A stretch of DNA of 64,000 nucleotides, from positions 859,780-923,779 of the forward strand of contig NZ_LTBL01000001.1 of the NCBI RefSeq assembly GCF_018687785.1, written 5' to 3'. The first letter of the stretch is position 1. Every line of letters begins with the position of its first letter. The position numbers and the translations under genes were made by a program. Under the pieces are notes generated by a model. That model did no database searches and was not told the origin of the DNA. It saw nothing but the letters and a program-made list of their open reading frames with translations. Of this stretch, positions 12,367 to 27,194 are shown piece by piece. This DNA is from Methanovulcanius yangii. Lineage in GTDB: Archaea > Halobacteriota > Methanomicrobia > Methanomicrobiales > Methanomicrobiaceae.

Positions 12367-14238
12367 CTATGAGATGCCCGGTATGTCGCCAAACCAGCCA
12401 ACCAGCCCGAGCCGTTCACCGTCATCATCCCTGAGAAGTGCGAACGTCCCCTGCACGGAAAATGACGAACGGTCCCGCCGGAGCCCGGTGACGACACCCG
12501 ACCATGGATCCAGTGCCCAATCCATCCCTCCATCTGCCGTCCAGAGCTCCGATGCGTCCATGCCTGCCACATCGTCAAGGGATTCATATCCCCACATCGC
12601 AAGAAACGCCGCGTTTACGTATCGCAGATGCCTGTTTGCATCGGCCACCGCAACGGCGCATGGGAGGGAGGCAAGCGCCATATCCATTATTCTCAGCTCT
12701 TCGCCGACGGCCTTGAGATCTTCGATGTCATCCAGGAGTATTGATTGCGCCCGCCGCAGTTCGGTGACATCTTCGTAGGTGACGTAGTGACTCTGGTCAC
12801 AGAAGAGAATAGGCCGGAAGATCACCGTTTTCCTCTCCCCATTTTTGCAGGTCACCTCGTACATCCGGGGACGAACCTGATTTTCCCCCGCTTTATCGAC
12901 ATCCTTCTTCCAGGTGGCGATCACGTCCCTGCGGACAGCTGCATCGGGAAACGCACGGGCAAACCATTCTTTGCCGGTCGGGATGTCGTCGAGGGTATAC
13001 CCAAACACCTCGATGAATTTGCGGTTTATGAAGGTATAGCGCCCCTCCGCATTGATGATGGCAGCCGGGAAGGGGAAGAGTTCCACCACCTGCCGGAACC
13101 GCTGATTGCTTCGGCGCAGCCGTTCCTCCGTCATCCGTTTGGAGATTGCAATCGATGCCTGCCGGATAAAGGATTCGAGCGCATGAACATCCTCGATCTC
13201 CTCGTCCGCCGCAAGGAATACTCCGACATCCCCGAGAAGCTGACCCTTCCAGACGAGGAAGGTCATGTAGGCCTTGCCGATATTGCACGTCGTGACAACC
13301 TGTTCGCAGACGTCCTCCGGAATCTGTCCGAAGGCGAGGTCATAAAACGAAAATACACCTTTCGCCGGCCGTGCCTCCAGTGGAATCTCACGTACGCCAT
13401 ACTCAATCTCACCAGGATTTTCAAGGAAGGGGGAGAGGAACACCTCGTCGAGTGGAAAGGGCATCCCCACAGGGTCTCGCCCCAGGAGAGAAATCAGCTC
13501 TTGACGGAATAGCTCATCCATCACAGAACGGACGAAGAAGGTATTCTTCGCTTCATCATAAGACTGGACAAACACCTTCCCCTCCGGTATGAACTCGATG
13601 ATGAGTTCGCCAATACGCTGGTACACGTCCGTATCATCCGGGAGGTCGACGAAATCCATCGCAGATTTTGCGAGAAACTCCATGTTTCGCACATATCGTT
13701 TCTTCTCGGTGATGTCCTCCAGAACAATCGTCCTTCCCCGCTCCCCGTGGTCGAAGACGGTTGGGACCACCTGCATCTGGTAGAAGAACTCCTCCCCGTC
13801 GGGGCGGTACCTCACATCGGTGATATACTGTTCCCGCTCCACCCCCTCGATGAGGGCGAGCGTCTCCGGCGTCGATACGACAGGGAGGGCAACCTCCCTG
13901 ACGTTCTCGCCAAGAATCTCTTCCTTTTTCCGCCCGGCGATGCTGAGAAAACGATCGTTGATCTGGAGGATATTGCCACAACGGTCGAGAACGACGATGA
14001 GGTTGCTGGTAAAACAGAGAAACGCAGACATCGGAACCCTCTGGGCGAGCGAATAGACCTTTGCATTGCCGACGGTGCGCATATCGACCTGTCCTCCCAC
14101 CCGCAGCACCTCGAGGTGCTTCGAGACGGAGTTGCGGGTCAGCCCCGTATGTTTCGCAATCTCGGTGATGGTCATCCCCCGCGGCCGGAGCCTGAGAGTC
14201 CGCAGGATGCGGTTGGACGACCCCTGATCCTCATCCAT
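12367..14238 (-). CDS. HTH-PAS-GAF-like one-component sensor regulator
   Basis: 623 residues. An N-terminal winged helix-turn-helix (about residues 7-65, MTITEIAKHTGLTRNSVSKH) is followed by a PAS domain (~72-180), a GAF-like region (~190-370), and two more PAS domains (~385-495 and 520-620). There is no kinase domain, so the protein probably senses a signal and acts directly on DNA. The HTH resembles ArsR/MarR-type DNA-binding domains. It is transcribed divergently from cbiMNQO across a 459-base gap that contains inverted repeats, so that operon or its own promoter are possible targets (inference). TATA box at 14265-14274. Confidence 0.88.
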   Translation of the reverse strand: MDEDQGSSNRILRTLRLRPRGMTITEIAKHTGLTRNSVSKHLEVLRVGGQVDMRTVGNAKVYSLAQRVPMSAFLCFTSNLIVVLDRCGNILQINDRFLSIAGRKKEEILGENVREVALPVVSTPETLALIEGVEREQYITDVRYRPDGEEFFYQMQVVPTVFDHGERGRTIVLEDITEKKRYVRNMEFLAKSAMDFVDLPDDTDVYQRIGELIIEFIPEGKVFVQSYDEAKNTFFVRSVMDELFRQELISLLGRDPVGMPFPLDEVFLSPFLENPGEIEYGVREIPLEARPAKGVFSFYDLAFGQIPEDVCEQVVTTCNIGKAYMTFLVWKGQLLGDVGVFLAADEEIEDVHALESFIRQASIAISKRMTEERLRRSNQRFRQVVELFPFPAAIINAEGRYTFINRKFIEVFGYTLDDIPTGKEWFARAFPDAAVRRDVIATWKKDVDKAGENQVRPRMYEVTCKNGERKTVIFRPILFCDQSHYVTYEDVTELRRAQSILLDDIEDLKAVGEELRIMDMALASLPCAVAVADANRHLRYVNAAFLAMWGYESLDDVAGMDASELWTADGGMDWALDPWSGVVTGLRRDRSSFSVQGTFALLRDDDGERLGLVGWFGDIPGIS

Positions 14239-14264
14239 ATTTAAGAAAGCTCTATACCCACCAT

Positions 14265-14274
14265 TCTATAAAAC
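14265..14274 (-). promoter_or_regulatory. TATA box of the HTH-PAS sensor gene
   Basis: Minus strand GTTTTATAGA, centred about 30 bases before the ATG at 14238, the spacing expected for a nearly leaderless archaeal transcript. Confidence 0.55.
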
Positions 14275-14367
14275 AGTAACATATAGGCAGGAAAATTAAC
14301 AATAAACGCTGAATTTAGCGCATTTTATAAATCTTTGATGACATTTGACGCGCTGTTTTCGTAGGAA

Positions 14368-14394
14368 ACCACCCATTGCAAAAATATGGGTGGT
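14368..14394. repeat. 9-bp inverted repeat with 9-base spacer
   Basis: ACCACCCAT at 14368-14376 and its exact complement ATGGGTGGT at 14386-14394. A related half-site ACCACCC occurs again at 14457-14463. It may be an operator for a dimeric regulator or a hairpin in a transcript starting at the upstream TATA box. Confidence 0.6.
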
Positions 14395-14650
14395 ATAGGC
14401 AGAAGGCAATGTTCAAAGGGTCACTATGGCAAAAAATGGGAATCGATACTCCTGAACCACCCTCGCAGGTGATGAAACCCCTCGGAGATCTCTTGCATCG
14501 GTACGCCACCTTGCGCAGGTGCATTCCCCGGAGGGTTCAACTTTTTAATCGGGCAGATTATCCTGCGTTTCCAATTTTGATAATATATTCAGCCCATTTG
14601 CCTACCGACCAAATAACTAAAATTAAATAGTTTTAATATCAATTCATTTT

Positions 14651-14668
14651 ACTCAAATATATTTGAGT
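14651..14668. promoter_or_regulatory. Perfect 18-bp palindrome covering the cbiMNQO TATA box
   Basis: ACTCAAATATATTTGAGT is perfectly self-complementary and its centre (AAATATATTT) is the only good TATA box before cbiM. It is centred 38 bases before the cbiM ATG at 14698. A regulator bound here would block TBP, so it is a candidate operator for cobalt- or B12-dependent repression. The binding protein is unknown; the sequence is not the GTATGA-N16-TCATAC type used by NikR. Confidence 0.65.
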
Positions 14669-14697
14669 TAGAACAACTGTGTTGGTTTTGATTGCAT

Positions 14698-15408
14698 ATG
14701 CATATTATGGAAGGTTTTCTGCCCAGTCCTTGGTGGCAGATATGGTGGATTCTGGCACTTCCGTGCCTGATCTATGGATTATTCAAATTGAAGAAAATCA
14801 TGAATGAAAACCGTGAAGTGCTCCCTCTCCTTGGTGTTGCGGGCGGATTTATCTTTGTTCTCTCCGCACTGAAACTCCCCTCGGTAACCGGCAGTTGTTC
14901 GCACCCGACCGGAACGGCACTGTCGGCAATCACCTTCGGGCCGTGGATCACCGCCGTCCTGGGATGTATCGTTCTTCTGTTCCAGTCATTGTTCCTGGCC
15001 CATGGCGGTCTGACAACCCTCGGTGCTAACATGTTCTCCATGGCTATCGTCGGGCCATTCGTTGGCTACTATGTCTACAAGGGCCTCGACAAGCTGAATG
15101 TGAACTTCTTTATCTGTGTCTTCATCGCGGCATTCCTCTGCGATCTGGTCACCTACTGCGTGACCGCACTTGAACTGGCCCTTGCATTCCCTGCAACTTC
15201 CGGAGGGCTCCTCCCGTCATTTGCAGCGTTCCTTGGCGTATTTGCCCTAACACAGGTACCCCTTGCGATCATCGAGGGTCTGGTCTTCGTGGTCATCTTC
15301 AAGTACATTGTTATTCTGAAACCCGAACTTCTGGTAAAATTGAATGTGCTCACCGAAGAAAAATGGAAAACAGCAAAGGAGGCATGGAAGAATGAAGTAT
15401 CTTTTTGA
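14698..15408 (+). CDS. cbiM: Cobalt ECF transporter substrate-binding subunit CbiM
   Basis: 236 residues. The protein begins MHIMEGFLP, the invariant metal-coordinating N terminus of CbiM/NikM, so the ATG at 14698 is the real start rather than the TTG at 14692. About seven membrane helices follow, with the conserved SGSCSHPTGT-like segment (TGSCSHPTG) and a His-Gly loop (LAHGGLTTLGAN). CbiM is the metal-selective S component of the energy-coupling-factor importer; in this context the metal is cobalt for B12. It is first in cbiMNQO and overlaps cbiN by 17 bases. Confidence 0.95.
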   Translation: MHIMEGFLPSPWWQIWWILALPCLIYGLFKLKKIMNENREVLPLLGVAGGFIFVLSALKLPSVTGSCSHPTGTALSAITFGPWITAVLGCIVLLFQSLFLAHGGLTTLGANMFSMAIVGPFVGYYVYKGLDKLNVNFFICVFIAAFLCDLVTYCVTALELALAFPATSGGLLPSFAAFLGVFALTQVPLAIIEGLVFVVIFKYIVILKPELLVKLNVLTEEKWKTAKEAWKNEVSF

Positions 15409-15703
15409 AATCATCACCCTGATTGCAATCATCCTCTTTACCGGGGCATTTCTCTATACGGATACGATTGTTCAGGCTTCCGGCGAAGAAGGCTGGGGAG
15501 GAACAGACGGTGTGGGTTCCGAGATGGTTGAAGAACTCGGGTATGAGCCATGGATTGACAATTCGGATTATACCTTCACCCCTCCCTCGGGCGAGATCGA
15601 ATCGTGCCTCTTTGCCCTGCAGGCAGTAATTGGCGGCCTGTTGATCGGATGGATATTCGGCTCCTGGGCAACAGAGAGACGGATAGAGAAAACTTCAAAT
15701 TAA
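15392..15703 (+). CDS. cbiN: Cobalt ECF transporter auxiliary subunit CbiN
   Basis: 103 residues with two membrane helices at the ends and an extracytoplasmic loop containing the typical GTDGVGSEMVEELGYEPW stretch. CbiN is needed with CbiM for cobalt uptake. AGGAGG lies about nine bases before the ATG at 15392, inside the end of cbiM, so translation is coupled. Confidence 0.92.
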   Translation: MKYLFEIITLIAIILFTGAFLYTDTIVQASGEEGWGGTDGVGSEMVEELGYEPWIDNSDYTFTPPSGEIESCLFALQAVIGGLLIGWIFGSWATERRIEKTSN

Positions 15704-15721: not shown

Positions 15722-16525
15722 ATGAATTACGAGTTGTTTGAAAATATCGCTCAGACAAGCGGGCTTAAGGGTGTACACCCTGCTGTAAAGCTGATTGTGG
15801 GGCTGGGATGCATCCTCATCTCCGTCTCCTCAGAAAGTTTTCTCACCCCGTGTATCATCGCCGTTACCATCGGTCTCGTCACGATTGGCCCGGGGCGGAT
15901 CGATTGCCGGTTTTATCTGAGACTGCTGATGATACCTCTTGGATTTGCCCTTCTTAGTGTGTTTGTCATCTTCTTCATCAGAAACAGCGGAGGGGTGATC
16001 TATTGCTGGTCCCCGGCCGGATGGCTGACCCTGACGGTTACCACGGGAAGTGTAAATGAAGGGATGCTCGTATTATCACGAATTTTTGGAGGGATGTGCT
16101 CCCTGTTGTTCATATCCCTTACAACACCGGCGACGGAGATCTTCTCCCTTGCGAAAAAATGCCATGTGCCGGGGTTCTTCATTGAACTTGCCATGCACGT
16201 GTACCGTTGTATTTTTATCCTCATCGAGCAGGCCGAAATGATCTATCTTGCCCAGGCCATGCGCCTGGGGTACATGAAACGGAAGGGTTCCGTTGCAACA
16301 TTCGGGTGCATGGCCGGTACCCTGTTCATTCATTCGTGGGAAGCGGGGGAACGAATCATTGAAGCAATGGATTGCAGGTGCTATAATGGAACATACGCGA
16401 TGCTCGGGGAACAGGGCGTCTTTTTTGGCCCTGCCCTGTATCTGTCGATACTGTATCTTGCATCCCTTCTCGCCCTTTTGATCCTCTCCGGCAATATGCA
16501 ATTTCTTGGTGGTTTGATCACATGA
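15722..16525 (+). CDS. cbiQ: Cobalt ECF transporter transmembrane subunit CbiQ
   Basis: 267 residues, five or more membrane helices, and the EcfT-type coupling motif region (AQAMRLGYMKRKGS, near residue 178; MDCRCYNGTY near 218) through which the ATPase contacts the membrane part. CbiQ is the T component of the importer. Its TGA overlaps the start of cbiO as ATGA. Confidence 0.94.
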   Translation: MNYELFENIAQTSGLKGVHPAVKLIVGLGCILISVSSESFLTPCIIAVTIGLVTIGPGRIDCRFYLRLLMIPLGFALLSVFVIFFIRNSGGVIYCWSPAGWLTLTVTTGSVNEGMLVLSRIFGGMCSLLFISLTTPATEIFSLAKKCHVPGFFIELAMHVYRCIFILIEQAEMIYLAQAMRLGYMKRKGSVATFGCMAGTLFIHSWEAGERIIEAMDCRCYNGTYAMLGEQGVFFGPALYLSILYLASLLALLILSGNMQFLGGLIT

Positions 16526-17700
16526 CCTGTATCCTCGAACTGACAGATATTACCTACCGGTATCCAAACGGACCGGCAGCGCTGGACAAGGTCTCCCTGC
16601 GACTGATGCAGGGCGAAAAAATCGCTCTCGTCGGACCAAACGGAGCGGGAAAGTCGACGCTCCTGCGTATGCTCAACGGAATGCTCAGACCCGATTCCGG
16701 GACCGTCCGGTTTCAGGGAGAACCGGTTTCCTACACGCGCAAAGACCTGAAGACCCTGAGAAGGAAAGTCGGGTTTGTATTCCAGAACCCGGACCACCAG
16801 ATCATCGCTCCCACCGTATTTCAGGACGTGGCATTCGGGCCGGCAAATCTGGACTATACACCGGAGGAAATGAAACGTGCCGTCGATACCGCCCTATCGT
16901 ATGTAGGCCTTTCAGCATTCGGGAGACGTCCGCCCCACCAGCTCTCCGGGGGGGAGAAGAAGAAAGTGGCCATGGCAGGCGTGCTTGCAATGGATCCCGA
17001 TATGCTCGTATTCGATGAACCCACGAGTGCCCTTGACCCGGAAAGCGCCCGCAGCATCATGGATCTGCTGGATGAGCTCCATCAAGCGGGCAAGAGCATC
17101 ATCATTTCAACCCATGATGTCGAACTCGCCTATACCTGGGCCGACCGGATCATCATCATGCACGATGGGAGGATACTGATCGCGAGCAGGCCGGAGGAAG
17201 CATTTTCCGACAAGGGATTGCTGGCGGAGGCTCAATTGTCACAACCCCTTCTCATCGAGCTCTATGAGGCGCTCTGCGAGCTGGAGATGGTGCCGTCGAC
17301 GAACATGCCCCATTCGGTCCTCGATGTCGTGGCAATGCTTGACACGGACCATCGGCGACCCCGCGGCAGTACTCCCAGAGGATTCATTGTCCTAGCAGAT
17401 GCCGGCGGTCCTGATACTGAACGGGTGAAACAAACCATAAATGATGAAACGGTAGCGATTGTCGGGGGGATGGGCACTGTTGCAAAGAACATGGCCGCCA
17501 GGTGGGGGATATCCCTCACCTACACCCACGGGGTCATTGACAAATGCCTTCTGAAAGCAATTTCAGGACACAACAGCCTCATTCTCACAAACGGAGGAAT
17601 GATGACCAGAGTTGTCGACCGTGTTGAAGAATTCAATGCAGAAAGTGGGGATTGTGTTGAAGTCGTCCACTTCGATGATTATCTGCACATCAGACAATAA
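16522..17700 (+). CDS. cbiO: Cobalt ECF transporter ATPase CbiO with unusual C-terminal domain
   Basis: 392 residues. The first ~270 are a standard ABC ATPase: Walker A GPNGAGKST (residues 38-46), Q-loop in VFQNPDHQ, signature LSGGEKKK, Walker B MLVFDEPTSALDP, H-loop STHD. CbiO drives cobalt uptake with CbiMNQ. The last ~115 residues, after a basic linker (RRPRGSTPRG), form an extra alpha/beta domain with two Gly-rich turns (VGGMGTVAKN and LTNGGMMTR). CbiO is usually about 280 residues, so this is an added domain of unknown function. It might sense a ligand; no family could be assigned. Confidence 0.93.
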   Translation: MTCILELTDITYRYPNGPAALDKVSLRLMQGEKIALVGPNGAGKSTLLRMLNGMLRPDSGTVRFQGEPVSYTRKDLKTLRRKVGFVFQNPDHQIIAPTVFQDVAFGPANLDYTPEEMKRAVDTALSYVGLSAFGRRPPHQLSGGEKKKVAMAGVLAMDPDMLVFDEPTSALDPESARSIMDLLDELHQAGKSIIISTHDVELAYTWADRIIIMHDGRILIASRPEEAFSDKGLLAEAQLSQPLLIELYEALCELEMVPSTNMPHSVLDVVAMLDTDHRRPRGSTPRGFIVLADAGGPDTERVKQTINDETVAIVGGMGTVAKNMAARWGISLTYTHGVIDKCLLKAISGHNSLILTNGGMMTRVVDRVEEFNAESGDCVEVVHFDDYLHIRQ

Positions 17701-26333: not shown

Positions 26334-27194
26334 TTAATACCGCGAGAAGACGTCGTACTCCATTTCCGTCACCCGGAGCCGGATATAGGAGAAATCACCC
26401 TCGGGAAGATTCCATTCGGCCACAATTTCCATCGGGACGGTGAACCCGTCCTGCTCGCGGTAATCATAAAAATATCCGGTCCACCGGTCGCGACTGTAGG
26501 TATCACCGACGGTCCGGTAGCGCTCGTCCGTCGTGACACTGCTGATCCGGCCCGCTTCGTCAAAGGAGAAGACAACCTTTGCCGAACCAGCCCCGTCTGT
26601 TATGATCGCCCGTGCATGCAACTCGTCGATGGCTTCCCAGGTGACATATTCATCATTCAGGAAGGCCGTGGGAAACCACGGCATCTCGCCGATATAGCGT
26701 TGAAGACTCGACAGGTCCATCTCCGGGCCCTTCGCATCGGCAATGGGAATGGTGGAGAGGGCCTTCACCAGCATATTCCCCTCTCCTCCTGCATATCGGT
26801 CCCTGACATCGATCCAAAAGAGGAAGAGGAACCGGGTATTCGCATGCCAGATAAAGCCGGGCGGTTCAGCCGAGAAATACTGTTCGGCCTTGACCGGCAT
26901 CCATTCACCGTCAGGGTCGGTCCTGAACGCTCCCTCCTGCGTCATCCGGACGAACCGGACGGACTCCGCCTCCCCGGAGATCGCGTATTCCAGATATCGC
27001 CGGACCGGCTCCGGGAGATTTGTGGGCTCCCCGGCGTGAAGTGCTGCCGGTTCCCCCTCCTCTGCTTGTGCGGCAAGGTCGGCAACCTCGCGGTCCACGG
27101 CCCGGTCAAACGAGATACAGCTCAGCGCCACAACGATACCAAACACGATGACGATGATGCAGGCGATGATCACGACAACACTTAGATGCGACAC
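26334..27194 (-). CDS. Membrane-anchored DUF6544/DUF6920-like protein
   Basis: 286 residues: one N-terminal helix (VVVIIACIIVIVFGIVVALSCI), then a domain with PEPVRRYLEYAI, the stretch around MTQEGAFRTDPDGEWMPVKA, and PPGFIWHA, which resemble the DUF6544/DUF6920 family as I remember it. Function unknown. The start is a GTG with GAAGGGTG upstream, and a TATA box at 27256-27268 gives a ~40-base leader. The similarity is recalled, not searched. Confidence 0.65.
   Translation of the reverse strand: MSHLSVVVIIACIIVIVFGIVVALSCISFDRAVDREVADLAAQAEEGEPAALHAGEPTNLPEPVRRYLEYAISGEAESVRFVRMTQEGAFRTDPDGEWMPVKAEQYFSAEPPGFIWHANTRFLFLFWIDVRDRYAGGEGNMLVKALSTIPIADAKGPEMDLSSLQRYIGEMPWFPTAFLNDEYVTWEAIDELHARAIITDGAGSAKVVFSFDEAGRISSVTTDERYRTVGDTYSRDRWTGYFYDYREQDGFTVPMEIVAEWNLPEGDFSYIRLRVTEMEYDVFSRY

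Follow-up and report, generated by a model that had tools for sequence, protein, structure and literature searches.

In bacteria, the cobalamin riboswitch places cbi and btu genes under the control of B12. Methanogens depend on cobalt-corrinoid chemistry, and a question of interest is which protein senses cobalt or B12 in them in place of a riboswitch. For some archaea a CBL-box, the site of a hypothetical B12 regulator, was reportedly predicted by Rodionov et al. in 2003, when the genome collections, as far as we know, probably included no Methanomicrobiales. The other described system closest to the present one is the NikR operator of archaeal nikMNQO, an inverted repeat near the operon start for which we take GTAATAC-N14-GTATTAC to be the consensus; NikR sites are characterized by a two-turn spacing.

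The locus considered here lies in the window, the whole 64-kb stretch of DNA that was analysed, from an archaeal genome of 2.29 Mb, and consists of a perfect palindrome before a cluster with the gene order cbiM-cbiN-cbiQ-cbiO. Unlike the cobalamin riboswitch, which is an RNA element, the cbiM site is a short DNA motif; a search of positions 14200-15000 with Rfam covariance models, to E=5, gave no match, in agreement with the preliminary description of this DNA, which had set B12 riboswitches aside as not usual in archaea. Like the NikR operator it is an inverted repeat situated near where a Nik/CbiMNQO operon begins, but it differs from it in sequence, the NikR-type element of this genome being found at a nikM-like paralogue, not at cbiM. 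With the reported archaeal CBL-box it shares the character of a DNA site for a hypothetical B12 regulator before archaeal cobalamin or cobalt genes, to which the present analysis adds a candidate regulator. From sequence comparison we consider it probable, with good though incomplete confidence, that the palindrome is the operator of a transcription factor of a cobalt/B12 regulon, through which cbiMNQO would be controlled.

The palindrome and the cbiM promoter

The features of the locus are as follows.

14618..14631, + strand: TATA-like element TAAAATTAAATAGT, conserved in orthologues, with a putative TATA role; it also scores as a weak box, 21 bp ahead of the one at 14639
14639..14652, + strand: TCAATTCATTTTAC, a second, weak box immediately 5' of the palindrome (6.9 bits, 11th of 63,987 window positions)
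14650..14656, + strand: predicted transcription start zone, placed by the usual archaeal promoter spacing
14651..14668, no strand: perfect 18-bp palindrome, the putative operator box for a predicted regulator of cobalt/B12 genes, placed where transcription should start (core 14653-14666, 14.8 bits with the box matrix from other families)
14698..15408, + strand: cbiM, S component of a cobalt ECF transporter (PF01891; TIGR00123, 296 bits)
15392..15703, + strand: cbiN (PF02553)
15722..16525, + strand: cbiQ (PF02361)
16522..17700, + strand: cbiO (PF00005); its C-terminal extension (about 17284-17697) is similar to DUF7839

A direct check of the window sequence shows that the 18 bp at 14651-14668, ACTCAAATATATTTGAGT, are fully self-complementary and that their centre and the cbiM ATG (14698) are 38 nt apart, both as originally described; the naming of the downstream gene as cbiM likewise holds, on the strength of PF01891 and TIGR00123 (296 bits). 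Within the window and the whole 2.29-Mb genome the palindrome is single-copy at up to 3 mismatches. Its length by itself is weak evidence, as one perfect palindrome of at least 18 bp is observed in the 64-kb window against 0.23 expected from Markov windows; the probability of such a palindrome within the 459-bp intergenic stretch before cbiM is 0.002.

The preliminary description, which was right about the palindrome itself, went on to take its AT core for the TATA box and proposed repression by blocking of TBP. The core AAATATATTT is indeed TATA-like, and if it were the TATA box, its symmetry being incidental or serving a TBP-blocking repressor, the mRNA would have some 12 nt of 5' leader. 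However, promoter conservation, read from the orthologue promoters of the family in an alignment of nine, places the conserved TATA-like sequence not at the palindrome but at 14618-14630. This sequence, TAAAAWTAAATAG, ends 20 nt upstream of the palindrome and is found exactly in nine of the 12 close orthologous cbiM promoters (our own counted), with differences of a few bases in the other three (G018, G023 and G025), whereas the core at the palindrome position drifts among the orthologues through CAATATTATTTG, ACAATTGAATTTGT, CCAATTTAATTGG and ACAAGTTTACTTGT, forms unlike a TATA box. On this conservation we rejected the TATA reading of the core, to which we would give about one chance in ten; the palindrome is probably not the TATA box. 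As the TATA centre of archaeal promoters lies about 26-27 nt before the transcription start, we infer that cbiM transcription starts at about 14652, within the palindrome, and it is because the conserved TATA-like element sits upstream that the palindrome should overlap the start.

A shared putative operator motif at cbiM promoters

The cbiM promoter set consisted of 92 promoters, a subset of those in the 199 genomes of the order, 19 of them from the own family. A promoter on a contig ending inside cbiM (G026), one with only 58 bp of upstream sequence (L083 of G193) and one with a misplaced gene start (L090 of G196) were left out, and G006 was counted once; own-family genomes lacking a listed cbiM orthologue (e.g. 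G027, G024, G009 and G011) contribute nothing, so that same-genus promoters are absent from the comparison. Expectation maximization on the 92 promoters gave one motif, TCAAATTAAATTGagTTAAAtCAAATAAATTT, a tandem in which two near-palindromic CAAATWWAWTTG boxes, spaced by 20 bp, enclose TTAA. Its log-likelihood was 1054, against 108-128 in eight randomized sets, and when each genus was represented once (n=34) it was 405, against 90-104 in the randomized counterparts.

Of the 73 promoters from other families, 69 then went into a symmetric 14-bp box matrix. The full motif by which their sites were placed had been derived with the own promoter included, but its best match in that promoter is at 14618 and not the palindrome, so that no circularity arises for the latter. 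With this matrix, which provides the strong test of the palindrome, the core TCAAATATATTTGA (14653-14666) scores 14.8 bits, the highest value among the 63,987 positions of the window, the next position reaching 9.0, and none of 30 simulated 64-kb windows attains its score. Comparison across the order shows the palindrome to match the putative operator box of cbiM promoters, CAAATWWATTTG, which usually occurs as two boxes 20 bp apart; judged as a CAAATWWAWTTG box it is the top site of the window. In the own cbiM promoter no further strong box was found at the 20-bp distance with intervening TTAA, and the tandem pattern has no match at 3 mismatches anywhere in the own genome; what accompanies the palindrome are the weak boxes at 14618 and 14639, which rank 9th and 11th in the window and lie 35 and 14 bp upstream of the palindrome box. 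The predicted operator of this genome is therefore atypical, comprising one strong extended box and two weak ones upstream of it.

Within the own family, the outside matrix finds a box at p<0.05 in 11 of 19 promoters (Fisher 2e-12, uncorrected for relatedness); the other eight have no significant box, and those of G019 and G021 are essentially boxless. The preliminary description had staked its reading on the presence of the motif before cbiM in close relatives, and here the outcome is mixed. The exact 18-mer ACTCAAATATATTTGAGT was not seen among the other cbiM promoters compared, but in G010, whose CbiM is 94% identical and which is the closest relative to have a usable promoter, the arms ACTCAA...TTGAGT are retained, and other relatives retain the box.

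The predicted regulon and alternative explanations

At up to 3 mismatches the tandem pattern occurs in 70 of the 199 genomes of the order, with no matches in a reversed control, and has no match in the other 129; a hand comparison of coordinates puts roughly two thirds of these places just upstream of a cbiM. In the phylum set it occurs in 39 of 294 genomes, the control giving matches in two. We examined 20 regions of the order in which the pattern lies away from a listed cbiM, a subset of all such places. In most of them a pair of archaeal pilin-like genes follows it, in several cases adjacent to transporter genes of the FecCD/BtuF type; Pfam was run on a BtuF-type gene (L186) and on pilin (Pilin_N) and FecCD genes (L189), the remaining pilin and transporter genes being judged by eye from their N-terminal sequences. 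The pattern also stands before a CobN-like gene in G010 (L188), the nearest relative with a full promoter, and before a gene for a DUF7839 winged-helix protein (L195). Two of the regions (L189, L201) begin a cbiM or a cbiM remnant, and three (L185, L187, L204) have no evident connection with cobalt and may be chance matches. Outside the order the pattern precedes an adenosylcobalamin-dependent ribonucleotide reductase (NrdJ, L298), BtuF-like genes with CbiZ alongside (L300, L302), a B12-binding (corrinoid) protein (L316) and a pilin pair (L296). Given these targets, namely cbiM, CobN, BtuF/CbiZ, the ribonucleotide reductase, the B12-binding protein and the pilin/BtuCDF loci, the motif marks cobalt and B12 genes. 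The pilin-like pairs sharing the predicted cobalt/B12 operator (L186, L192, L193, L198, L271, L296), several of them beside FecCD/BtuF-type transporters, are an observation of their own, suggesting that surface pilin-like proteins take part in the uptake of cobalt or corrinoids.

In the own genome no cobalt or B12 gene other than cbiM was found with a clear box. Sites matching the box at 1 mismatch lie inside genes or away from recognizable cobalt genes; at 2 mismatches there are 72 sites, of which those with a locus were looked at, and the two FecCD loci have no box above 8 bits. The regulon of this organism may thus be cbiMNQO alone. The search for the palindrome before other cobalt and B12 genes that had originally been suggested succeeds for related boxes across the order and the phylum, and in the own genome for cbiM only. 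These related boxes support the proposal that the palindrome is the site of a cobalt or B12 regulator; of the interpretation as first offered, this much stands, together with the view that it is neither a NikR-type site nor a riboswitch, and repression by covering of the TATA box does not.

It is less certain that the regulator of such a site is, as had been suggested, undescribed, because of the CBL-box of 2003. The conserved site upstream of archaeal cobalamin and cobalt genes by which the CBL-box is reportedly characterized is what we find at cbiM, CobN, BtuF with CbiZ, NrdJ and the corrinoid protein, and the present motif may be the CBL-box. If so, the operator class is known and the palindrome is a new member of it, while the proposal concerning DUF7839 given below remains. 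Our literature search, which covered the motif and the CBL-box and did not extend to DUF7839 by name, found no description of the cbiM motif.

For the predicted operator we propose the following mechanism. While cobalt or corrinoid is abundant, a dimeric winged-helix regulator would bind the palindrome, over the transcription start, and would keep RNA polymerase off the cbiM promoter; upon cobalt scarcity it would leave the palindrome and cbiMNQO would be expressed. With a defined operator, a phylum-wide predicted regulon and a named candidate gene, the question of cobalt/B12 sensing becomes open to experiment.

Other explanations have to be set against this. The same operator might be read by NikR or a cobalt-sensing NikR paralogue, as NikR paralogues and frames with NikR_C alone lie near some motif loci (L189, L192, L193, L272) and the box spacing of 20-21 bp resembles the two-turn spacing of NikR sites. 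But the own genome has a single NikR gene, and its nikM-like paralogue, the second CbiM/NikM (L270 2440-2680), has an operator of another sequence, GTAATAC-N14-GTATTAC, whose end lies 13 nt ahead of the gene start. At cbiM this NikR-type repeat has no match at 3 mismatches, the one match in the window, at 26334, being at chance level, which upholds the earlier statement that the palindrome is unlike the NikR operator. The cbiM motif is found at NikR genes in only two of 30 loci, both from near relatives (G015, G016). Co-occurrence was dropped as an argument for NikR as the regulator; it is uninformative because 287 of the 294 phylum genomes have NikR. All told, NikR is an improbable regulator of this site, though the least improbable of the alternatives. 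A hairpin formed in the cbiM transcript near its 5' end, acting as a stability element or a leader switch, would be in keeping with the different inverted repeats that several relatives carry in the same zone (ATGATTG...CAATCAT, GATAA...TTATC), and the folding energy of the last 60 nt is slightly better than that of shuffled sequences (Fisher p=0.026, 19 promoters). Yet the signal of the DNA box (the Fisher value of 2e-12 above) is far stronger than that of the dyads (0.02) or of folding (0.026), folding of the own leader is ordinary (p=0.34), and Rfam again offers nothing in its favor; on these weak folding and dyad statistics we rejected the hairpin, which we hold to be very unlikely. Least likely of all, in our estimate, is a chance palindrome in an AT-rich promoter: 0.23 palindromes of such length are expected per window, and this one is unique in the genome, but an independent matrix puts it first, and it stands where the box is found in relatives.

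Apart from this question, we noted, next to the motif-bearing operons, short frames encoding the NikR C-terminal metal domain alone, with no ribbon-helix-helix seen (L189 2141-2395, L193 2149-2436), which could be truncated genes or metal-binding proteins.

A winged-helix DUF7839 protein as candidate regulator

For the regulator of the predicted cobalt/B12 operator the likeliest candidate is a winged-helix protein with a DUF7839 domain, a proposal weaker than that of the operator and somewhat short of an even chance. Its winged helix is weakly similar to the SloR, MarR and ArsR/SmtB families, which recalls metal regulators of the DtxR/MntR/ArsR type, but the domain joined to it is DUF7839 rather than a metal site of the DtxR or ArsR kind. 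The own-genome protein has this DUF7839 domain at C1:1413824-1414126. DUF7839 proteins occur in 193 of the 199 order genomes, in Methanosarcina acetivorans, which served as a control, and in all 39 motif-bearing genomes against 230 of 294 in the phylum (hypergeometric 3e-5, uncorrected for phylogeny); NikR is likewise present in all 39, which we count against the candidacy of DUF7839. Some genomes of one genus have extra DUF7839 genes beside cbiM, cation-efflux or pilin/BtuCDF genes (G041, G081, G127, G133, G173), and the operator pattern lies upstream of a DUF7839 gene in G081, G153 and G173. It also counts against the candidate that no sign of autoregulation was seen, the motif not being found before the single-copy core DUF7839 gene; in about 14 of the 60 rows of the upstream check of NikR and DUF7839 genes the frame taken was visibly another gene than the one meant, and the absence of the motif rests on the remaining rows.

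A connection to the transporter itself is provided by the C-terminal extension of CbiO (17284-17697, about 130 residues), which resembles DUF7839, the second domain of the winged-helix family. In isolation, the own extension has DUF7839 as its sole Pfam match (E 0.13) and that of a relative matches it at E 3.7e-5; hhalign aligns extension and domain with a probability of 84 and E 7e-6. A structural model of the extension (pLDDT 80, five-sequence input) has corrin methyltransferases as its best matches (CbiL with Z 8.7 over 95 residues at 2.9 A; best Foldseek E 5e-3), a modelled likeness near the level of unspecific matches. No sequence link was found by hhalign between the extension or DUF7839 and the corrin methyltransferases CbiE/CbiH of the window, and a PDB sequence search with the extension profile had no match. 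It is conceivable, if rather doubtful, that the DUF7839 protein is the cobalt/B12 regulator and that the domain it shares with the CbiO extension, with its predicted corrin-methyltransferase-like fold, is one type of sensor, of a cobalt-corrin intermediate or of cobalt, which could control transcription via the palindrome as well as the activity of the importer.

The intergenic region also serves a gene for an HTH-PAS regulator, divergent from cbiM and starting at 14238. Before it, ACCACCC/GGGTGGT elements are repeated at 14252-14264, 14368-14376, 14386-14394 and 14456-14462 and include a perfect 9-bp inverted repeat, ACCACCCAT-N9-ATGGGTGGT; these elements are possibly that gene's own operator. 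A terminator-like hairpin lies between the two genes at 14307-14320.
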